From Fasciola hepatica (Eukaryota > Platyhelminthes > Trematoda > Plagiorchiida > Fasciolidae), in NCBI GenBank assembly GCA_948099385.1, contig CANUEZ040000167.1, forward strand, positions 4,563,001 to 4,627,000: a stretch of DNA of 64,000 nt, given 5' to 3'. Under the pieces are notes generated by a model, which searched no databases, was not told the DNA's origin, and was given only the letters and a program-made list of their open reading frames with translations. The number at the start of each line of letters is the position of its first letter. Position 1 is the first letter of the stretch. A program made the translations under genes and the position numbers. This document shows positions 1,667 through 52,111 of the stretch, in pieces.

Positions 1667-2700
1667 AGAAAACGGTTCGGTCGTGCCTGGGAACCAAGTC
1701 GTATCCTTTGACCCGTTTGTCTTGTTGTCCTTGATCGATTTTGACACTGGAGAACTTCCTATCAAGTACCGTGTAGGGTCCTTTCCATCGTCTGTGGAAC
1801 TTGCTGGCCCCCGGACCGGACACTTCGGGTCTTTCCCTATTCCCTACTTGAACCACCTGCCCCGGCATGAGCAGCTATCATATATGTTTTCGGTTCCGCC
1901 TGTTTTACCTTGCCTTGTTTCTACTCTGGACAACCCTTTTCTGTTGCGCGGCCACACCCTCTGTATATCTCCGCTCTCGGGTTGTCAGAGGTTGATCATT
2001 CTTCATGTTGAGCCACACACCAAGTAGCTTCCTGGGTTTCTGCCCGAAAAACAGTTCAAAAGGAGTCCTCCCCGTCGTTGAATGGTTCACTGCACGGTAC
2101 CTAAGCAAATATCACCGACAGTCCTTCCTGCCAACCACTTTTGTGGTTATCCAAACATTCTTTTATCGATCTGTTGCATCTTTCCGTCATTCCGTTTGCC
2201 TGGTGTTGGTAAGGCGACATCCGTATCTGCCGGATTCTCCACTGTTCCGACATGTCTCGAAACTTCTCCGATTCAAAGCAGGGACCCTGGTCAGTGATGA
2301 CCGTTTCTGGTATATCAAATCGCGCCACCACATTATCAACAAACACTCGAGAGACCATATCGCCTGTTTGACCCGGTATTAGGATAGCTTCCACCGAGCG
2401 AGACACATGGTCAACCACTGACATGGTGTACCAGTTTCCAGCAGCACTCATGGGTAGGCGACCAAAAATATCCAAACCCAAACTTTGAAAGACTTGCCAT
2501 GCTTCTGTGGACTGCATTTGTGGAGTAGCTGCTACGTGCTCTCGGTTCCGCTGACAGTGAGGGCCTGTTTGTATGTACCCATCAACGTCTTGCCTCATCG
2601 TGGGCCAGAGGACCCCGAGCCGCAACAGTTCGGAGGCTTGATGTCGTCCATGTGAGCACGGCCGTACGCCAGCTGTATTGGCAGCTCACTTGATGTCTCG
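1665..2700 (-). pseudogene. Gypsy integrase, broken
   Basis: Three minus-strand frames cover the integrase from C- to N-terminus with increasing coordinate. At 1665-1868 is a GPY/F-like module (KFHRRWKGPYTVLDRK). At 1905-2108 is the usual post-core block (HSTTGRTPFELFFGQKPR). At 2101-2625 is the DDE core, with the first D in GLDIFGRLP, the second in VITDQGPCF and the E in NGMTERCNRSI. Upstream, the zinc-binding HHCC region is reduced to PHCQRNREH after WPTMRQDVDGYI, with the first cysteine of the CxxC pair apparently lost. Frame changes at about 1870-1905 and 2101 break the gene. The intact family protein inserts element cDNA into the chromosome. Confidence 0.87.
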
Positions 2701-3229
2701 GGAACAAAGGGCAGTCGTCTGGGTAGCGGACCTTGTCCCATTTCAAAGCCAACGAACGGTTAGTCGCCTCCCGTGTGCAACCGCTTACAAAACTTTCAGT
2801 AGGCCGTGCAGCGTGGATGATTTCCCATCTGCTCTGGTCTTCGCTTGAAGATATGAACAATCTATCCGCAGCCGACTGTCGCTTCTTTGATGGCTGAAAA
2901 CACCATCACTTTAAATATGCCAATTCACTCGGATTGCTTTGGTCGACAGTTGGTGGTCGGGGATCGGACGGGATAATGCTTCAGGTGTTTCTTTTTCTAG
3001 TCCGTTAACATGCTCGATTGTGAAGGCGAATTCTTGCAGGTGGTATACTCACCTTTCCAACCTCCATATTTGATCTCGTGCTGTCATTAACCACGTCTAT
3101 GGCTTGTGATCCGTTTTGGTGCAGAAGTTATTAGCAGCCAGATACGTTCTTCACATTTTGAGTGCCTACATGATTGCTGAACTTTCCCTTTCCATGGTGG
3201 AGTATTTCCCTTCGGCACTTGTGTGCAGC

Positions 3230-4470
3230 CGGATGGCGAACTCAATCGCCCTAGAAGGTTATGAAAACTCCGCGCCGATTCCAAAGTCACTAACATCTAC
3301 TGCTACCGTGAATTTCTCGCGCGGCTTTGGTATTTTCGAACAGCTCCAAGAAATTGCTGCTCCTTCCTTGAGTTTCCTGAACTTTGCCTCCACATCTGAC
3401 GCCCACTGGAGCTTCTTATACTTCCTCAGTGGTTGAAACAGGACCCCAGCTTTCTGGGCAACATTTTCCACAAACTTGGCTTGATAACTAACCAGGCCGA
3501 GGGGATATCTCAGTTGGCCCTTTGAATTTGGCAACGAAAATCTCCTAATTGTTTCTCTTTTCTCGGATGGGGGTTGAAGGTTTTCTGCTCCACCAATGCT
3601 TCCCAAACAAATGATTTTGTCGTGCGCTATCTGACGCTTCTTTGCACTCAGTGGTAAACCCGCCGCTTTGCTTCTCCCAAGGACTGCGCTTGGTCTGGAC
3701 ATGTGCTCGCCAGTCATCTTTGAAAATACCACCACAACACCGTGCAGGATTTCCAGTGCCTGCAGCAGCAAAAGTCTGAAAGCGGCCGGTGCGCTACACG
3801 GCTCAAGAGGCACCCGCAGGAACTCATGCTGCTTCCCGTTGACACAAAACGCCGTTTTCTCACGGTAGCTTGCGACCACTGGCAGTTACCAGCAGCTCGA
3901 AGTCAAATCGCATAACGACAACATATCAGCACCATAAAGCTGCTTTAATATCTATTCGGTTAAAGGATTTGGGAGTGCGTCCTCAATTGTGACAGGGTCG
4001 AGTTCCTGGAAGTCAACACAGAATCCATACGTTCTGCCCGACTTTTGCGTAAACAACACTGGCGAAGAATACGGACTACTGTCTTCCCGAATTACTTCCC
4101 TCGATAGCATGTTTCGAACTTTCATCTCTGCTTCCGGTGCAACCTTCTGCGGCATCCTCCGATACAATGGTTTGCACACTGCACCCGGCATCAAGATAAT
4201 ACCGTATTATTGCCAATCGCAAAAACCGAACTAGAGCTCTGGTATCGAAAATAACTCTGCATAACTCTCAAAGCACGGTCTGACACACGGGATTAAACAG
4301 CCTGGAACAGGGAAGGTTTTTACACCTCCAAAGCGATATAGCCGGTGCTTGCGGGACAACGGCAAGGTATTTCTCTCTCCAACTTGCAATCGATGAGCTT
4401 CAAAACGGATTTCTGCTTCTACACCTTCCAACAAATCAAGCCCAACAATTATTTTAGTGATCCTTCAAAC
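3230..4470 (-). pseudogene. Gypsy reverse transcriptase / RNase H, broken, catalytic YxDD missing
   Basis: Minus-strand 3952-4194 encodes the RT start (REVIREDSSPYSSPVLFTQK, then a diverged RFCVDYRxLN block seen as GFCVDFQELDPVTIEDALP). Frame 3259-3879 carries FLRVPLEPCSAPAAF, then a spot where YxDD should precede VFSK but reads ILHGVVVVFSK, so the catalytic aspartates are absent. It continues through the connection to an RNase H start (KFTVAVDVSDFGIGAEFS). Frame 4231-4470 holds the end of protease (IIVGLDLLEG) and the linker into RT; no DTG active site was found upstream. The gene is non-functional. Confidence 0.85.
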
Positions 4471-10800: not shown

Positions 10801-13710
10801 CAGTGCCAACAAAGCTCATAAAGGTCTCCCAGACTCATCCACACGCGAGCTCACGTTCCCCCCGATTTTGGATGACCCCATTCCCTCTACCAACTCCACT
10901 TCTGATTATTCAATCTTTCCCATAACTCATTGCAATATCACCCTAACTCCGTCTGCACCTACGCATCCAAAGACCCCTGGCACTCTTAGTAAGACAGTCG
11001 GGTCTGTGAGCCCACCCACTGCACTCTCTCATTCCCACTGGGATGTATCCGGTTATCATCCAGGCCACCACCGCTGATTGACTCGCCAACACAGACTTAC
11101 ACTCAGAAATCCACACTTCGTCGCCAAAGGAACAGAGCCTATCAAAGAAATGCACATGAAAACGCCAAGCAAATGGCACGATCGAGGGAAGCCTTACGGC
11201 CTTTAGTGAAGCTTTGAATCCCAAGTTCCGGCCTTGGATATATGCCTCTACATTTCAACCATACTTTACTACACCCCGTAAGATACTTTGAGCAGTAAGT
11301 AGCCAAATTCAAACGAATCCTGAAACCGAAACACGACTGGTCCTTAAGCAGTACAAGACTGAATTATGAAATGAGCAACAACATAAAACAAATGCAAACA
11401 TCAACAGGCGATCTTACGGACTCAAAAACGAGAACCAAGTTCGCGGCGTGCAGGGGACAAGCATATGCGTCATGCAGGTCCAAGATGGGATATGACAATG
11501 TAGCGCGTTGGGCGCGAATAAACAAAGGTTGGTTCACGGGAACGTAAATTGTACGGAACACGCAGGTAGTGTATGTAGGCGGGTAATATGACGAAATCAC
11601 GAACTTCTAGTGCATTTGGAGGATTTTCTACAGACGATCGTTGCACTTCTCGTTGCCTTCCGTTCACCGCTCCAAACAATTTCTATCCGCTCAACCGTCC
11701 ACTGTATACTACAACCGTTACCATGTCACTCCCTGAGAATCGTCTCCGTGCGTGATATAACTTTCTACTCCCACGTGACTCATCTACGTATTTAAGTCCA
11801 GCATTTCTACCTAACCGTGTTTGCTTTTTCTGCCGGCCCCCTCTGAGAATATTCACCGTCCTCTCCCTACAACAACTGAGGCTCCTCTTCCATCCTCGCC
11901 CTATTGGCCTCTGCACTTACTACCTTCATCATTACTACCAAACCCCTATTATCTCCACCGTTACCATCACCACCAAAAACCGGAATCATCTATTTGAATC
12001 AAACTCATAAGTGCCCGTTCAATAATGGGCGAAACTAAAACCATTCGCAGTACTGCTCACAACTCCCACTTTGATACTATCGTAGTAGCTGATATTCGGC
12101 TAACGGATTCCGTCCCGTCAGATCGAGTCTTCCTGGTTATTTACCGGGTGTTCTAAACGACCAGGCCTCGTCGTGTGGAGGTTGTTTTTTGATCTATATC
12201 AGAAGTTCCTCGCTGGTTTTTTGATCCCTCATACCACTTTGAAAGCCATTCAGGATTCTCTGTGGCGGCAAATTTCCTTACCGAACTGCTACCCTCATTT
12301 TGGTTGCACCTACCGACCACCTGGTCCCGGCGCTTTAGATCTTACCAATATTATTGACAAATTCAACCTTCTTTTATTGCTGTGCTGTTCCTTCAAACTC
12401 ACTGCTGAGGACTTTAGTGTCCCAAGCATTTTTTGAATATTCTTTCAGCCCCAGGCAACACACTGGACCCCACTTCATGCGTCCACGTAGGGCGCTGAAT
12501 CCAACATGTAACTGTACCAAACATGGGAATCAACATCCTGGATTTATTACTCACTGTTGGTTTATTTGATGTTTCAGCTGGAAATACCGATCTCCTCCCA
12601 GGAAGTGGTCACAGAACGGTGCCCTGCATCTTCGCATTTCCGCAGGCTTCTGATGAGTTACACTCACCCAATTGCCTTTCTTGAACGGTCTCCTGGAATA
12701 ATCTTATCTGCACTCTTTGATCGTTAAACTGGGACGACTTTCACCTGCAGAGCGACCCCCAGCTGACCACTGATTTACAATATATTTTAGCTGATACAGC
12801 CCGCAGTCCGCAATAACCACAACTCGTATCATGTCAAACCGAGTCCTTGGTTCAGTCCCGACCTAAAGCTTCACAAGGTGTGTCACGCCCATAGAGACTT
12901 ATCTTCATTCTTGCAGCTTCAAGGTCTCTCGGTGGCAATCAGAACCAAGACTGACGATGTGCTTAAAATAATTGAGCTATCTGCTCTGCAACGCCATGAT
13001 GCTTCCTCAAATTTGGCACTCCCGCTGAAGAACAGAAATCGGCACAAGTGCGCTGGTATCCCCTCTCTGGCTGAGGAGCTTGATTCCCACTTTGCGGCTT
13101 CCATGATTACGGACCCCCTCCACCTCACTTCCGTGCATAGACCCAATCATCGAGCACATAATATCAGATTTGCAATTTATTCCCAACGAGGTGACAAACC
13201 AGCTTACCCGTGACCGGCAGTCCTCATACCTAGGCCATGATGGCGTTCCCCCGACACCTCTACGTCCTGGAGGAACCGATGTCGTAGACTTAATATTGCA
13301 GGTCCCCAACCTATCTCCCAGGCGCGGTATACTTCCCATTCCATTTCATAAGAAGGAACCAGTACATGACCCGTCAAATTACGGGCCCGACAACCGCACC
13401 CAAAATTCTTCTACGTCAATGGAACGCCTCATCAAACAGCAGACATCCGACTTCTTATTGTCTAATAATATCATCCCTAGTGAGCCGCACAGCTTCCCAA
13501 AATCACTTCCATGCTCCATTTGATAGGACCAGTCTTGAGCCTCATAACAGTGGCTGCTGACGATAGAAAAACCTAACTTTGTTATAAACCTTGATATGAC
13601 CAATGCTTTTACCATGTCCTGCTTTTCCCATTCCTGACCAAACTCACAGCTCACGGCTTTTCCGGTTCTCTTTTATCATGGATAACATCACACGTATCGA
13701 ACCGCTCACC
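10790..13710 (+). pseudogene. L-family LINE remnant in left arm (ORF1 end, endonuclease, start of RT)
   Basis: The order and sequence follow the L LINE at 55.5-63.5 kb. ORF1 tail: STRELTFPPILDDPIPSTNS matches the intact element near 56.90 kb. Endonuclease: IQDSLWRQISLPNCYPHFGC then YRPPGPGALDL. RT approach: SFLQLQGLSVAIRTKTDD, then a GVPPTPLRPGGTDV block and KKEPVHDPSNYG. Homology fades at about 13710, before the catalytic FADD box. An inverted R copy interrupts it at 11279-11634. Stops and frameshifts are everywhere. The right arm holds its mirror copy. Confidence 0.85.
11279..11634 (-). repeat. Dispersed repeat R, copy inside left arm
   Basis: Mirror of 24685-25040. Read on the minus strand it begins CTGTAGAAAATCCTCC, like CTGTAAAAAATCCACA at 38.05 kb, and ends with GGATTCGTTTGAATTTGGCT, the typical R tail. 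It interrupts LINE ORF1/ORF2 homology. Confidence 0.55.
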
Positions 13711-22608: not shown

Positions 22609-25600
22609 GGTGAGCGGTTCGATACGTGTGATGTTATCCATGATAAAAGAGAACCGGAAAAGCCGTGAGCTGTGAGTTTGGTCAGGAATGGGAAAAGCAG
22701 GACATGGTAAAAGCATTGGTCATATCAAGGTTTATAACAAAGTTAGGTTTTTCTATCGTCAGCAGCCACTGTTATGAGGCTCAAGACTGGTCCTATCAAA
22801 TGGAGCATGGAAGTGATTTTGGGAAGCTGTGCGGCTCACTAGGGATGATATTATTAGACAATAAGAAGTCGGATGTCTGCTGTTTGATGAGGCGTTCCAT
22901 TGACGTAGAAGAATTTTGGGTGCGGTTGTCGGGCCCGTAATTTGACGGGTCATGTACTGGTTCCTTCTTATGAAATGGAATGGGAAGTATACCGCGCCTG
23001 GGAGATAGGTTGGGGACCTGCAATATTAAGTCTACGACATCGGTTCCTCCAGGACGTAGAGGTGTCGGGGGAACGCCATCATGGCCTAGGTATGAGGACT
23101 GCCGGTCACGGGTAAGCTGGTTTGTCACCTCGTTGGGAATAAATTGCAAATCTGATATTATGTGCTCGATGATTGGGTCTATGCACGGAAGTGAGGTGGA
23201 GGGGGTCCGTAATCATGGAAGCCGCAAAGTGGGAATCAAGCTCCTCAGCCAGAGAGGGGATACCAGCGCACTTGTGCCGATTTCTGTTCTTCAGCGGGAG
23301 TGCCAAATTTGAGGAAGCATCATGGCGTTGCAGAGCAGATAGCTCAATTATTTTAAGCACATCGTCAGTCTTGGTTCTGATTGCCACCGAGAGACCTTGA
23401 AGCTGCAAGAATGAAGATAAGTCTCTATGGGCGTGACACACCTTGTGAAGCTTTAGGTCGGGACTGAACCAAGGACTCGGTTTGACATGATACGAGTTGT
23501 GGTTATTGCGGACTGCGGGCTGTATCAGCTAAAATATATTGTAAATCAGTGGTCAGCTGGGGGTCGCTCTGCAGGTGAAAGTCGTCCCAGTTTAACGATC
23601 AAAGAGTGCAGATAAGATTATTCCAGGAGACCGTTCAAGAAAGGCAATTGGGTGAGTGTAACTCATCAGAAGCCTGCGGAAATGCGAAGATGCAGGGCAC
23701 CGTTCTGTGACCACTTCCTGGGAGGAGATCGGTATTTCCAGCTGAAACATCAAATAAACCAACAGTGAGTAATAAATCCAGGATGTTGATTCCCATGTTT
23801 GGTACAGTTACATGTTGGATTCAGCGCCCTACGTGGACGCATGAAGTGGGGTCCAGTGTGTTGCCTGGGGCTGAAAGAATATTCAAAAAATGCTTGGGAC
23901 ACTAAAGTCCTCAGCAGTGAGTTTGAAGGAACAGCACAGCAATAAAAGAAGGTTGAATTTGTCAATAATATTGGTAAGATCTAAAGCGCCGGGACCAGGT
24001 GGTCGGTAGGTGCAACCAAAATGAGGGTAGCAGTTCGGTAAGGAAATTTGCCGCCACAGAGAATCCTGAATGGCTTTCAAAGTGGTATGAGGGATCAAAA
24101 AACCAGCGAGGAACTTCTGATATAGATCAAAAAACAACCTCCACACGACGAGGCCTGGTCGTTTAGAACACCCGGTAAATAACCAGGAAGACTCGATCTG
24201 ACGGGACGGAATCCGTTAGCCGAATATCAGCTACTACGATAGTATCAAAGTGGGAGTTGTGAGCAGTACTGCGAATGGTTTTAGTTTCGCCCATTATTGA
24301 ACGGGCACTTATGAGTTTGATTCAAATAGATGATTCCGGTTTTTGGTGGTGATGGTAACGGTGGAGATAATAGGGGTTTGGTAGTAATGATGAAGGTAGT
24401 AAGTGCAGAGGCCAATAGGGCGAGGATGGAAGAGGAGCCTCAGTTGTTGTAGGGAGAGGACGGTGAATATTCTCAGAGGGGGCCGGCAGAAAAAGCAAAC
24501 ACGGTTAGGTAGAAATGCTGGACTTAAATACGTAGATGAGTCACGTGGGAGTGGAAAGTTATATCACGCACGGAGACGATTCTCAGGGAGTGACATGGTA
24601 ACGGTTGTAGTATACAGTGGACGGTTGAGCGGATAGAAATTGTTTGGAGCGGTGAACGGAAGGCAACGAGAAGTGCAACGATCGTCTGTAGAAAATCCTC
24701 CAAATGCACTAGAAGTTCGTGATTTCGTCATATTACCCGCCTACATACACTACCTGCGTGTTCCGTACAATTTACGTTCCCGTGAACCAACCTTTGTTTA
24801 TTCGCGCCCAACGCGCTACATTGTCATATCCCATCTTGGACCTGCATGACGCATATGCTTGTCCCCTGCACGCCGCGAACTTGGTTCTCGTTTTTGAGTC
24901 CGTAAGATCGCCTGTTGATGTTTGCATTTGTTTTATGTTGTTGCTCATTTCATAATTCAGTCTTGTACTGCTTAAGGACCAGTCGTGTTTCGGTTTCAGG
25001 ATTCGTTTGAATTTGGCTACTTACTGCTCAAAGTATCTTACGGGGTGTAGTAAAGTATGGTTGAAATGTAGAGGCATATATCCAAGGCCGGAACTTGGGA
25101 TTCAAAGCTTCACTAAAGGCCGTAAGGCTTCCCTCGATCGTGCCATTTGCTTGGCGTTTTCATGTGCATTTCTTTGATAGGCTCTGTTCCTTTGGCGACG
25201 AAGTGTGGATTTCTGAGTGTAAGTCTGTGTTGGCGAGTCAATCAGCGGTGGTGGCCTGGATGATAACCGGATACATCCCAGTGGGAATGAGAGAGTGCAG
25301 TGGGTGGGCTCACAGACCCGACTGTCTTACTAAGAGTGCCAGGGGTCTTTGGATGCGTAGGTGCAGACGGAGTTAGGGTGATGTTGCAATGAGTTATGGG
25401 AAAGATTGAATAATCAGAAGTGGAGTTGGTAGAGGGAATGGGGTCATCCAAAATCGGGGGGAACGTGAGCTCGCGTGTGGATGAGTCTGGGAGACCTTTA
25501 TGAGCTTTGTTGGCACTGGGGTGTAGGTCAGCTCTCGCAAATCGAGCAACGCGTAGCCAATTCAAACAAATCCCAAAACCAGAACAAGATTGATTCGTAG

Positions 25601-36899: not shown

Positions 36900-37680
36900 T
36901 AGAGTGCTGATTCGTGACTGCACAAAATTAAACGCAGGTGGTCTCACTTTGAACGGGCGTAATGTCGGACCACTTATCAGGAAAGACATATCCAACAAAC
37001 TTCCTTCCCACGGTAACAATTCTCAAGGACAGCAGCCCAAGGCAAACGCCACTGAGCCGCTTCTCAACTACTCGGCTGTAAGTCCGATTCACAGCCTTGC
37101 TGATGCCGGGCTGGCATAATCAGACAAGGTGGTTGATGATGCATACCTCCACAGCATGCAATACCACGGGGTTTTTTGCAAGCAGCCACTAGCCCTACGG
37201 TTATCAATCAGACGTGAGAAACATAACCCCTTTCTTCGATCTACTGCCTATCTTGTGGATATGTCTAAAGCCATGGCATTCTGGCACGGGTTACCGAGCG
37301 GCGCCCTCAGCGCATTGTGTGGGCTTGAGGTCACCTTTTTTTCTTTGCGCTTTGTGCATATCGCAGCCTAAACCCACCGTGAGGCGGGCCTCGGCTGCAA
37401 GTAGCTTGGCCAACTTGTCTCGCTGTCTTACTTTGGCATGCTGGCTGTCTGAAGTAATCAACAGTGATCCTGAACTTGGAGGACACAGATTTCTTCACTT
37501 TGTGAATGACTTAGCAAAAGGATCAAAAGATGCGCCGTACAAAGTCGCAGGAGGCACGAAACTGATTGAATCAGGAGTGGAGGGATCTGACCGGAGTCCT
37601 CCTCCAGTCACTTGCGTAGAATCTTCCTTCCAATCTGGCAAAAAGCCAATGTTTCGCTGGTGACGGATGCAAACGCACTT
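36900..37680 (+). pseudogene. LINE reverse transcriptase fragment, plus strand
   Basis: Frames follow RT order. NYSAVSPIHS stands for the NYRPVSLTS block near 37.06 kb. HGVFCKQPLALRL is the HGFxKxRSxxTNL block near 37.17 kb. LVDMSKAMAFW is motif A (FVDMSKAFDRV, with catalytic Asp kept) near 37.26 kb. FLHFVNDLAKG is the end of motif B near 37.50 kb, and VAGGTKLI is a ruined FADDTKL (motif C). Several frame changes and stops occur. The outer edge of palindrome 2 (37079) falls inside this fragment, so only the part from 37079 on is duplicated at 43549-44150. Confidence 0.72.
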
Positions 37681-38406
37681 TCAAAGATTCAGCTGAATAA
37701 ATAGCCCGCGAATCGCGGATTGTGAATGGCAAATTTAGGCAGATTGTTCGAGAGACAAAGAGTACAGCGCCTAGGCCGATGGCACACATTTCATGAAACG
37801 GACAGAAAGACCATCCAGAAAACCAAACCAGGGGACATACTTGCGCTATCTCAAACGATATCAAGTACTCGGCCAGCAGTGAAAAATGCGAGGCGACACC
37901 CCGACAGTCAAAATGACCGTGAGTTCTGGAGTTGGGCTTCTCTGAGAGAGCAAGGGAGAGCAAAGAGGACGGTGCCTGTTTCATGTGTCTGAATGACTCA
38001 CATGTCGTAGAAAAGCTGGGTTTTCTTGTGAAGGATGCCACTAGAATCACCTTCTGTAAAAAATCCACATTGAAAATTCCCTCAAACGTTGTACATGATT
38101 TGCGCATATGACTATATTTGACAGTACTTCACTCAGCTTGCACACACACAACACTTCTACACGTTTGCTGGTTTGCTTGAGAAATTCCAATCCGATCTTG
38201 AACCGTCTCTGACCGTCGTGCTTGGACCCCGGGAATGTGAACCTTTGGGTTTTACTTTGAAGTCTATTTTGTCGCATACGTGAGATCTGTACATGTTCAC
38301 TTTAGTTGTGATCTTCAAGCTAGTTCAGTAAATATTAGGAACCGATTTTGTTCTGGCTTTTTGAATCGTGCAAACTGGATATGCGCCGCTCGATTTGCCT
38401 CTCTTG
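37079..38406 (+). repeat. Palindrome 2, left arm (1328 bp)
   Basis: Each position x pairs with 81229 minus x in 42823-44150 with no gaps. All open frames in the arm (the longest is 178 codons, 37571-38107 minus) recur with identical predicted proteins. Mismatches appear only within about 20 bases of each end. The LINE RT here continues outside the arm, so this arm looks like the source. Confidence 0.95.
38055..38406 (+). repeat. Dispersed repeat R, copy 3 (inner edge of palindrome 2)
   Basis: The copy starts CTGTAAAAAATCCACA and includes CGATCTTGAACCGTCTCTGA, GAACCTTTGGGTTTTACTTT, GATTTTGTTCTGGCTTTTTG and the tail ATATGCGCCGCTCGATTTGC. The palindrome arm ends within 10 bases of the R tail. 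Confidence 0.68.
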
Positions 38407-42822: not shown

Positions 42823-43174
42823 CAAGAGAGGCAAGTCGAGCGGCGCATATCCAGTTTGCACGATTCAAAAAGCCAGAACAAAATCGGTTCCTAATATTTA
42901 CTGAACTAGCTTGAAGATCACAACTAAAGTGAACATGTACAGATCTCACGTATGCGACAAAATAGACTTCAAAGTAAAACCCAAAGGTTCACATTCCCGG
43001 GGTCCAAGCACGACGGTCAGAGACGGTTCAAGATCGGATTGGAATTTCTCAAGCAAACCAGCAAACGTGTAGAAGTGTTGTGTGTGTGCAAGCTGAGTGA
43101 AGTACTGTCAAATATAGTCATATGCGCAAATCATGTACAACGTTTGAGGGAATTTTCAATGTGGATTTTTTACA
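42823..43174 (-). repeat. Dispersed repeat R, mirror copy at inner edge of palindrome 2
   Basis: Reverse complement of 38055-38406. On the plus strand here, AGGTTCACATTCCCGGGGTC at about 42.99 kb resembles an RNA polymerase III B box (GGTTCRANNCC). Confidence 0.65.
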
Positions 43175-43548
43175 GAAGGTGATTCTAGTGGCATCCTTCA
43201 CAAGAAAACCCAGCTTTTCTACGACATGTGAGTCATTCAGACACATGAAACAGGCACCGTCCTCTTTGCTCTCCCTTGCTCTCTCAGAGAAGCCCAACTC
43301 CAGAACTCACGGTCATTTTGACTGTCGGGGTGTCGCCTCGCATTTTTCACTGCTGGCCGAGTACTTGATATCGTTTGAGATAGCGCAAGTATGTCCCCTG
43401 GTTTGGTTTTCTGGATGGTCTTTCTGTCCGTTTCATGAAATGTGTGCCATCGGCCTAGGCGCTGTACTCTTTGTCTCTCGAACAATCTGCCTAAATTTGC
43501 CATTCACAATCCGCGATTCGCGGGCTATTTATTCAGCTGAATCTTTGA

Positions 43549-44150
43549 AAGTGCGTTTGCATCCGTCACCAGCGAAACATTGGCTTTTTGCCAGATTGGA
43601 AGGAAGATTCTACGCAAGTGACTGGAGGAGGACTCCGGTCAGATCCCTCCACTCCTGATTCAATCAGTTTCGTGCCTCCTGCGACTTTGTACGGCGCATC
43701 TTTTGATCCTTTTGCTAAGTCATTCACAAAGTGAAGAAATCTGTGTCCTCCAAGTTCAGGATCACTGTTGATTACTTCAGACAGCCAGCATGCCAAAGTA
43801 AGACAGCGAGACAAGTTGGCCAAGCTACTTGCAGCCGAGGCCCGCCTCACGGTGGGTTTAGGCTGCGATATGCACAAAGCGCAAAGAAAAAAAGGTGACC
43901 TCAAGCCCACACAATGCGCTGAGGGCGCCGCTCGGTAACCCGTGCCAGAATGCCATGGCTTTAGACATATCCACAAGATAGGCAGTAGATCGAAGAAAGG
44001 GGTTATGTTTCTCACGTCTGATTGATAACCGTAGGGCTAGTGGCTGCTTGCAAAAAACCCCGTGGTATTGCATGCTGTGGAGGTATGCATCATCAACCAC
44101 CTTGTCTGATTATGCCAGCCCGGCATCAGCAAGGCTGTGAGTCGGACTTA
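43549..44150 (-). pseudogene. LINE RT fragment, mirror copy truncated at palindrome edge
   Basis: Mirror of 37079-37680, with the same ruined motif C and motif A remnants on the minus strand. It begins abruptly at the arm edge, lacking the upstream RT sequence that the left copy has at 36900-37078. This supports its origin as a partial inverted copy. Confidence 0.72.
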
Positions 44151-50925: not shown

Positions 50926-51272
50926 AAACTGTTATCATCGAGATGCGGTGAAAAGCAAACAAGTGATAGACACCCGAAGCAAGCTTGACTGTGTGATCAC
51001 ATGATACGACCAAAGTCGCTTATGGACTTCTGGGAAAAGTACTTAGGTTCAAGTAGAGTAGAGAGGTTTTACCTGCCACATAAATGAGTGCCTGGGAGAA
51101 TTGGATATAATGACCAGCTAGTCATATCACTTAAGAACGAGTGGATTTGACTGGGAGGTCAAAACATGTTGAAAACTGGAGCAGGCAGAGAAATAAACGT
51201 TCACGAATTCGGAACGCTCTCTTGAAACGGACATACTGAACAGCGCTGCGCTACACCGGGCCTCTATTTTCC
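50926..51272. other. No recognised feature (left flank of TRIM)
   Basis: No coding motif. It ends in the TTCC (51269-51272) that is repeated after the miniature LTR element. Confidence 0.4.
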
Positions 51273-51449
51273 TGTAATGGCCAGGCTGTAAGCCGCCATA
51301 TTGTTGTTCCAGTAATGTAAGTGTTGGTGCCGCTGATACACTTACTGAGCTTCGGCTCATGGAGTCTTTTTTCTTTCTCTTGTGCTTTTGCAGATCAACC
51401 ACGCTCACCCCCCCCCCCGGCGGAAGATCACTGCTGCTTGCGTGTTACA
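51273..51449 (+). repeat. TRIM 5' LTR
   Basis: 177 bp with short inverted ends TGTAA/TTACA. It contains a perfect UUCG tetraloop hairpin (TGAGC-TTCG-GCTCA, 51346-51359) and a pyrimidine run ending TGCTTTTGCAG that looks like a 3' splice acceptor (about 51367-51393), then an 11-base poly-C run. Confidence 0.93.
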
Positions 51450-51453
51450 AATT

Positions 51454-51471
51454 TGGTGCCGCGACCCGGGA
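51454..51471 (+). promoter_or_regulatory. TRIM primer binding site
   Basis: TGGTGCCGCGACCCGGGA begins four bases after the 5' LTR. Its complement ends in CCA, as a tRNA 3' end must, so it is the expected minus-strand primer site. I cannot name the tRNA with certainty. Confidence 0.85.
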
Positions 51472-51751
51472 CCGGAGGTTATGGGAGGCCTTGGTGATTG
51501 ACCTGAAAATGACCGTACAGATAATTGTGCTCTGTGAAGTGTGACACGGTCTTAATGTGGCCCAGTAGAGGTCTTTTGAATTGGCCTGCACGGAGTAATA
51601 AAGCGGAAGGCCTGATTGGTTGTGTAGTTTTGAGGTACTGCGTAATCGGCAGTGAACCTGTAAAATGGCCTGCCCAAGGCGTGGTCCCAGGGAACTGAGT
51701 ACTCCTGTGGTGTGATGGCGGAGTAAGTAACACTGTGGACAGTGTTCTTTC

Positions 51752-51766
51752 GTTGAGGGGGAGCGG
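51752..51766 (+). promoter_or_regulatory. TRIM polypurine tract
   Basis: TGAGGGGGAGCGG directly precedes the TG of the 3' LTR. It is purine-only apart from one C, as expected for the plus-strand primer. Confidence 0.8.
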
Positions 51767-51940
51767 TGTAATGGCCAGGCTGTAAGCCGCCATATTGTTG
51801 TTCCAGTAATGTAAGTGTTGGTGCCGCTGATACACTTACTGAGCTTCGGCTCATGGAGTCTTTTTTCTTTCTCTTGTGCTTTTGCAGATCAACCACGCTC
51901 ACCCCCCCCGGCGGAAGATCACTGCTGCTTGCGTGTTACA
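51767..51940 (+). repeat. TRIM 3' LTR
   Basis: 174 bp, identical to the 5' LTR apart from three fewer Cs in the poly-C run (51902-51909). Followed by the TTCC target duplicate. Confidence 0.93.
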
Positions 51941-51944
51941 TTCC

Positions 51945-52111
51945 CTAGGTTATGTTTGGTTATGTTTATGAAACTTATAACCGTCTGTCATTTAGCTAGA
52001 AAGGCGTAAGAAAAATACCCAAAATTTTCTACGTAGCTTTACACTCTCAAAAAGTTCAACTTGCTGACCCATAATCTTTCCCTCTTCTTCACATTATCTC
52101 CCGAACTACCT
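51945..52111 (+). other. Probable 5' leader of L LINE A
   Basis: 167 bp between the TRIM and the first in-frame ATG of LINE A. It shows no resemblance to the leader of LINE B, so LINE A may be 5'-truncated or of another subfamily. Confidence 0.4.

Follow-up and report, generated by a model that had tools for sequence, protein, structure and literature searches.

Positions 51273-51940 of the 64-kb window, i.e. of the whole stretch of Fasciola hepatica DNA analysed here (G000:C167:4563001-4627000), are occupied by a short gene-less LTR retrotransposon (TRIM) of 668 bp, which confirms its classification in the initial annotation (Table 1). The LTRs had been described as identical save for their poly-C length, and indeed they show 0 substitutions over 174 aligned bases and a single 3-base gap in the poly-C (11 vs 8). 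The reported TTCC target-site duplication (TSD) is likewise present on both sides. Two details had to be corrected. The proposed primer-binding site shows 18 nt of perfect complementarity to the CCA-extended 3' end of tRNA-Phe(GAA), as encoded by gene L080 of the same genome (L081 and L082 have an identical 3' end), but it is situated 4 bases after the 5' LTR and not inside it. The purine tract exists as well, but does not touch the 3' LTR, because 3 bases lie in between.

Table 1. Features of the TRIM and its insertion site; positions refer to the window.
Feature	Position	Strand	Basis
Left target-site duplication, TTCC	51269..51272	.	Sequence; single TTCC in 3/3 fetched empty sites (L058-L060)
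5' LTR (LTR-A, subfamily A1), 177 bp, TGTAAT...GTTACA	51273..51449	+	Sequence
Intron-like stretch of the 5' LTR, GTAAGT...TTTTGCAG	51317..51393	+	Sequence; use not supported
Internal region (INT), 317 bp, no gene found	51450..51766	+	Also inside fusions L022, L037 and L105
Primer-binding site, tRNA-Phe; AATT (4 bases) between 5' LTR and site	51454..51471	+	18-nt exact complementarity, tRNA-Phe(GAA) gene L080
Polypurine tract GAGGGGGAG, then CGG before the 3' LTR	51755..51763	+	Sequence
3' LTR (LTR-A), 174 bp	51767..51940	+	Sequence comparison
Right target-site duplication, TTCC	51941..51944	.	Sequence

The only reading frames listed over the TRIM are on the minus strand, at 51445-51935, and span 127 and 147 codons from stop to stop. 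Splicing of the TRIM LTR at its intron-like stretch was rejected, since the spliced junction has 0 genome matches at up to 2 mismatches. A TRIM driven by a tRNA-, 5S- or ribozyme-derived sequence was rejected as well, as a search of 51100-52100 against Rfam gave 0 matches up to E 5, although weakly similar relics could escape it, and the 64-kb window contains 0 tRNA genes. On contig C76, starts of tRNA-Phe genes recur every ~1.4 kb between 59672 and 101547, and the one unit that was read (L081) is a tRNA-Phe gene.

Elsewhere in the window, two pairs of frames with identical translation on opposite strands, 12791-13523 (+) with 22796-23528 (-) and 37193-38128 with 43101-44036, represent large inverted duplications. 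The window also harbours a LINE, whose named relatives belong to the flukes Dicrocoelium, Trichobilharzia, Heterobilharzia, Echinostoma and Schistosoma, next to records labelled as bacteria. Proteins labelled Streptococcus dysgalactiae (e.g. P0123-P0131) share 50-60% identity with this animal LINE and are probably host DNA in bacterial assemblies.

The sequence into which the TRIM inserted is a LINE-type repeat of this genome (1.4998 Gb, 656 contigs). When the flanks were joined over one TTCC, 39 of the 40 scored matches (out of 580 candidates) crossed the join, and the remaining one was the window itself. All three empty sites that were fetched have a single TTCC and lack the insert; they are paralogous copies of the repeat and not the orthologous site of another individual. 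A genome search with the TRIM returned at least 46 near full-length matches, all of them 93% identical or more, besides one partial match (40 scored of 2674 candidates). The junction of LTR-A, primer site and internal region occurs at 77 places at up to 3 mismatches, 57 of them exact (reversed control: 0), and 76 TRIM 5' junctions remain once the fusion on contig C24 described below is subtracted; older copies such as L097 lie beyond this mismatch limit. The 3' end of LTR-A was found 349 times (control: 0), and among the first 100 listed occurrences 75 are spaced 470-520 bp apart as in TRIMs and 25 otherwise.

The TSDs were evaluated in 38 full-length TRIM units, a set which leaves out units without full-length LTRs by BLAST as well as places already covered by another locus. 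Examples of the former are L002 and L063, whose LTR end is changed, L016/L020, in which the 3' LTR is split, and the first unit of L021, where it is cut. Exact 4-bp TSDs flank 32 of the 38, one has a 5-bp TSD, three belong to one array and two have none. Hence, the TRIM is not part of a tandem satellite, as 32 units each possess their own exact TSD, and dispersed copies, own TSDs and empty sites together led us to reject both a satellite and a single-copy relic. The claim of a recent multi-copy TRIM is confirmed: instead of one copy without any empty site there are many copies and paralogous empty sites. Short head-to-tail arrays do exist, at least three of them (C30, C47, C115).

The 38 units fall into two subfamilies, A1 (26 units) and A2 (12 units), which differ mainly in the LTR. 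LTR pairs without substitution amount to 10/26 in A1 and 11/12 in A2, with a mean LTR-pair divergence of 0.76% and 0.05%, respectively; the A1 values include three array units, in which the two LTRs may derive from separate events. A2 is the youngest TRIM group. Converted into time, these values correspond to ~0.5 million years for A1 and ~35,000 years for A2, which are to be read as a scale only, because the rate (7.1e-9 per site and year) is an intron rate borrowed from the authors of the ta-TRIM study (PMC4558846). The TRIM may still be mobilised today, as the initial annotation suggested.

Some insertion sites deserve separate mention. At C9:429298-430631 (L008) the order TRIM-GTTC-TRIM-GTTC represents two insertions on one 4-bp target, and at C115:6876125-6878050 (L006, L056) a TRIM array, GTCT, a solo LTR-B and again GTCT do the same, as if the second element had struck the TSD of the first. 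The TRIMs at C27:16208281 (L004) and C20:5574308 (L015) carry different LTR types and the same ten flanking bases, TCTACCGTTG / GTTGTGCCTC, so that either a repeat site was struck twice or a copy was converted. A weak target-site pattern was also noted among the TRIM insertions.

A TRIM is expected to depend on proteins supplied in trans, and the initial annotation had named BEL or Gypsy elements as possible donors. The junction of an LTR end with the primer site occurs 268 times in the genome at up to 3 mismatches, 74 times exactly, and thus beyond chance, because the reversed control gave 0. The 20 exact junctions fetched outside the first TRIM matches comprised 12 TRIMs, the C24 fusion and seven loci (L017, L024, L029, L030, L031, L034, L035) in which another LTR of ~277 bp, LTR-B, precedes the same spacer and primer site and is followed by gag-pol. 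Sorting all 74 exact junctions resulted in 60 TRIMs, 12 LTR-B with gag, the C24 fusion and a hybrid on contig C127. None belongs to a BEL element, and a BEL helper was rejected; the Gypsy half of the proposal is supported by the domains of the candidate and by the recombinant molecules. The open frame of the C24 fusion (L022) has Pfam matches to aspartyl protease, RVT_1, RNase H, integrase zinc-binding and rve domains, with protease, reverse transcriptase (RT), RNase H and integrase in Gypsy order (residues 362-457, 591-751, 814-946 and 1063-1232). The relatives of its RT piece are mixed (Trichinella, insects, spiders, Spirometra, Sparganum) and include proteins named for the gypsy-type transposons 17.6 and 297. 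The window itself contains a broken Gypsy-type pol with integrase domains, at 2131-4077 (-), which is distant kin of family B (26-31% identity) and not the helper.

Family B includes a young subfamily, B'. With a 1170-bp gag piece, at least 32 B' copies (among them L022) were found at 98-100% identity; of the remaining scored copies, one reaches 96% and seven reach 91-92% (40 scored of 303 candidates). Eight B' 3' windows were read, of which L053 has no LTR, and therefore seven LTR pairs were compared. Five of them match completely, another shows a single substitution, and in the last the two LTRs differ by a 38-nt segment. TSDs of 4 bp flank six of the seven; behind the remaining one, on C16, there is a primer site, as would be the case in a tandem. 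With five of seven pairs identical, B' is as young as the TRIM. TRIM and B have in common the 18-nt tRNA-Phe primer site, the LTR termini TGTAA...TGTTACA (agreement over 5-6 bases at the start and 7 at the end of the LTR) and the TSD length of 4 bp. The spacer before the primer site measures 4 nt in TRIM and B, and 5 nt in the 28 ordinary B' copies that were read, while complementarity to tRNA-Phe extends over 18 nt in the TRIM and in L031 and over 23 nt in the gag leader of L022. Beyond primer site, spacer, LTR ends and TSD length, no further sequence likeness of TRIM and B was found. Family B with its young subfamily B' is the likely helper. That another LTR retrotransposon with a tRNA-Phe primer site is the true helper, and B' merely recombines with the TRIM, appears improbable to us: the sorted primer junctions are the 74 exact ones among 268, which leaves room for such an element, but every one of these 74 is accounted for by TRIM, B with gag, the C24 fusion or the C127 hybrid, and B' is as young as the TRIM.

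A physical connection between both elements is provided by fusions, which the initial annotation had not noticed. They were found at three loci on different contigs, C24 (L022), C127 (L105) and C180 (L037), and are all joined at the common primer site. The C24 fusion consists of LTR-A2, the spacer AATT, primer site, gag-pol, the B purine tract and an LTR-B' of 236 bp, after which AAATT, a second primer site, the TRIM internal region, the TRIM purine tract and again LTR-A2 follow, all within the TSD GCTG. Its outer spacer is thus of the TRIM type and its inner spacer of the B' type. The gag-pol frame stays open for 1491 codons from stop to stop. The two outer LTRs agree fully over 168 bp; compared with the TRIM L026, LTR plus internal region show 0 substitutions. 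On C127, an LTR-B' of 236 bp, AATT, primer site, internal region (96% identity) and a complete LTR-A1 (89%) are enclosed by the TSD GTGT. On C180, an LTR-B' of again 236 bp is followed by AAATT, primer site, internal region (99%) and 61 bp of LTR-A1, where the LTR stops and unrelated DNA begins, so that no TSD can be read. A pattern for the junction of LTR-B', primer site and internal region found only C24 and C180 at up to 3 mismatches; C127 escaped it and was found by a separate search. The fusions were read in the assembly, and short tandem arrays exist. Even so, we regard it as highly improbable that misassembly produced the fusions, or that the repeats are merely a satellite or a dead relic: the junctions are precise at all three loci, which lie on different contigs and in two cases have TSDs, and dispersed TRIMs have their own TSDs and empty sites.

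Further information comes from the LTR-B sequences. In 32 LTR-B copies, not counting those whose LTR-B ends went unrecognised, gaps of at least 5 bases are restricted to two segments of the 277-bp LTR, one of 41 nt (31-71) and one of 38 nt (170-207), positions which also apply to the LTR-B' of L038. Both segments start with GT, end with AG, are rich in T over parts of their length and are cleanly present or absent between copies. Their limits are fixed by the sequence; only in L105 does a substitution allow the gap to be placed one base away. Among 29 ordinary B' 5' LTRs, 25 contain both segments, three lack both (L021, L041, L118) and one lacks only the 38-nt segment (L044); this set, made up of 10 LTRs from one batch of loci, the 18 readable ones among 19 from another, and L021, leaves out L110 (no readable primer site), L056 (cut 5' LTR) and L057 (the 96% copy), and L022 was counted as a fusion. 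Absence of the 41-nt segment alone characterises all three fusions, vs 0 of the 29 ordinary LTRs (Fisher 0.0002, computed after the pattern had been seen and on the assumption of independence, which need not hold for the three fusions). The two segments are probably small introns, which would have been spliced from some copies before reverse transcription. A fused RNA that was spliced and reverse-transcribed would explain why the fusions lack the 41-nt segment alone, and this absence fits a fused RNA with LTR-B' inside the transcript.

For the C127 hybrid, recombination before integration is the simplest reading, because two different LTRs within one TSD do not result from normal reverse transcription of one RNA. 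The situation is more difficult on C24. The junction of LTR-A and gag occurs only once in the genome at up to 3 mismatches, and therefore its TSD and identical LTRs are what speaks for movement of this fusion as a unit; this is the least certain step, because a one-LTR B' circle that entered a resident TRIM would give the same structure. According to such a chromosomal origin, circle and TRIM recombined at the stretch of LTR end and primer site, the fusion never moved as a unit, and TSD and LTRs were inherited from the old TRIM. This predicts the observed arrangement, with AATT as outer and AAATT as inner spacer, and only one locus of the C24 type exists. However, it does not account for C127 with its two different LTRs inside one TSD, and it gives no reason why the inner LTR-B' lacks only the 41-nt segment. 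Hence, we consider the chromosomal origin unlikely, though not negligible.

We rather assume, with good though not full confidence, that the TRIM moves by proteins of the Ty3/Gypsy family B (B'), to which it is joined at the common primer site at three loci. In this model, B' particles would take up TRIM RNA along with B' RNA, the B' reverse transcriptase would copy the TRIM RNA from a tRNA-Phe primer, and the B' integrase would insert the cDNA with a 4-bp stagger. Template switching at the common stretch of spacer and primer site could join both RNAs, and a fusion like that on C24 may then have moved as one unit, i.e. as a TRIM equipped with the genes of its helper. A hybrid of the C127 type could start from the inner B purine tract of such a fused RNA.

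The order of events could also be reversed, with the fusion first and A2 TRIMs shed from a C24-type fusion by reverse transcriptase jumping from the inner to the outer primer site. The C24 parts show 0 substitutions against L026 and 0-3 per part against all 12 A2 units, A2 is the youngest group, and a rice TRIM partner with a duplicated 25-bp stretch at its breakpoint (PMC4717578) would fit as well. Nevertheless, older A1 copies exist without the A2 LTR, and the C24 fusion already contains the TRIM internal region behind LTR and primer site, so that a TRIM-like element must predate it; we are therefore doubtful about a fusion-first origin of A2. A more far-reaching scenario, which we put forward tentatively and would not yet prefer, combines these elements. 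The TRIM would have reversed its reduction by acquiring the entire gag-pol and one LTR of its Gypsy helper through template switching at the common tRNA-Phe primer site, would have moved as one spliced RNA and become self-sufficient, and would shed hybrids with one LTR from either parent from the inner purine tract and new TRIMs by primer-site jumps, the latter being the youngest burst.

Helpers of TRIMs have so far mostly been argued from matching ends and primer sites. The presence of a TRIM and its candidate helper in the same inserted molecules connects the TRIM with a single young Gypsy family, so that co-packaging becomes open to a direct test. Should the C24 fusion have moved as one piece, genes of a helper can be won back by a parasite that had none, the opposite of one-way decay. 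Moreover, the GT...AG segments in Gypsy LTRs could mark copies that passed through spliced RNA.

Many individual features described here have counterparts in other systems, which we compare as far as the available portions of the cited papers describe them. The closest resemblance in architecture is to ta-TRIM of taeniid tapeworms, also a short gene-less LTR element (LTR ~198 bp), with a primer site 4 bases after the LTR and a purine tract 3 bases before the 3' LTR, for which a Gypsy-like helper was likewise proposed from common ends, primer site and TSD length (PMC4558846). Ta-TRIM, too, has TSDs of such length (4-5 bp) and a few tandems, besides solo LTRs; its primer is tRNA-Leu instead of tRNA-Phe, and its LTR pairs differ by 2-27%, compared to 0-0.8% on average here (PMC4558846). 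Its candidate helper lennie was proposed because of eight matching bases at the LTR start, the primer site and the TSD length, so that the agreement of TRIM and B in 5-6 first bases is weaker; however, no intact lennie copy in E. multilocularis and no TRIM recombinants are described in that portion of the paper (PMC4558846), whereas fusions exist here, one of them with an open B' gag-pol frame.

Regarding the helper, Saci2-like Gypsy elements of diphyllobothriidean tapeworms resemble B in length (4.7-5.2 kb), LTRs with TGT...ACA, 4-bp TSDs and a one-frame Gag-Pol, a likeness by description only, and the primers named for them are tRNA-Leu, -Gly and -Lys (PMC12471100), in contrast to tRNA-Phe in B. 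Other small gene-less LTR elements are Helenus, Ajax and Cassandra (PMC10886601) and the plant retrozymes (PMC4918200); neither the tRNA- or 5S-derived LTR sequence of the former nor the hammerhead ribozyme in the LTR of the latter was matched here, with 0 Rfam matches to E 5 around the TRIM. Among animals, TRIMs are known as PbTRIM in an ant (PMC3532108) and biv-TRIM in bivalves, the latter also in tandem but described with no clear primer site and no autonomous partner (PMC6934838), both of which the present TRIM has, the partner as a candidate helper.

Recombinant elements are known from grasses. Complex LTR elements of Triticeae, rice and maize resemble the C24 fusion in having three LTRs, identical outer LTRs and one TSD, and have been explained by template switching; both parents there belong to one family (PMC1950507), whereas C24 joins a TRIM and a Gypsy element with unrelated LTRs at the primer site. 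In rice, OsajRetroS10 and its putative autonomous partner OsajLTRA10 come near to C24, since the long element has the LTRs and internal region of the TRIM, and its duplicated 25-bp breakpoint sequence is reminiscent of the two primer-site copies of C24; these are Ty1-copia elements for which no foreign LTR is mentioned in the available text (PMC4717578), unlike the Gypsy fusion with a foreign LTR found here. In einkorn wheat, a non-autonomous Gypsy element has the ends and primer site of its partner, and its lineages have recombined (PMC11302176). Our literature search, which covered titles and the beginnings of abstracts, found no report of a TRIM with gag-pol plus an LTR of its helper and none on introns in such LTRs. 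TRIMs, Gypsy helpers and recombinant LTR elements are each known separately, and, as far as this search reaches, a TRIM that carries the genes of its likely helper is new.
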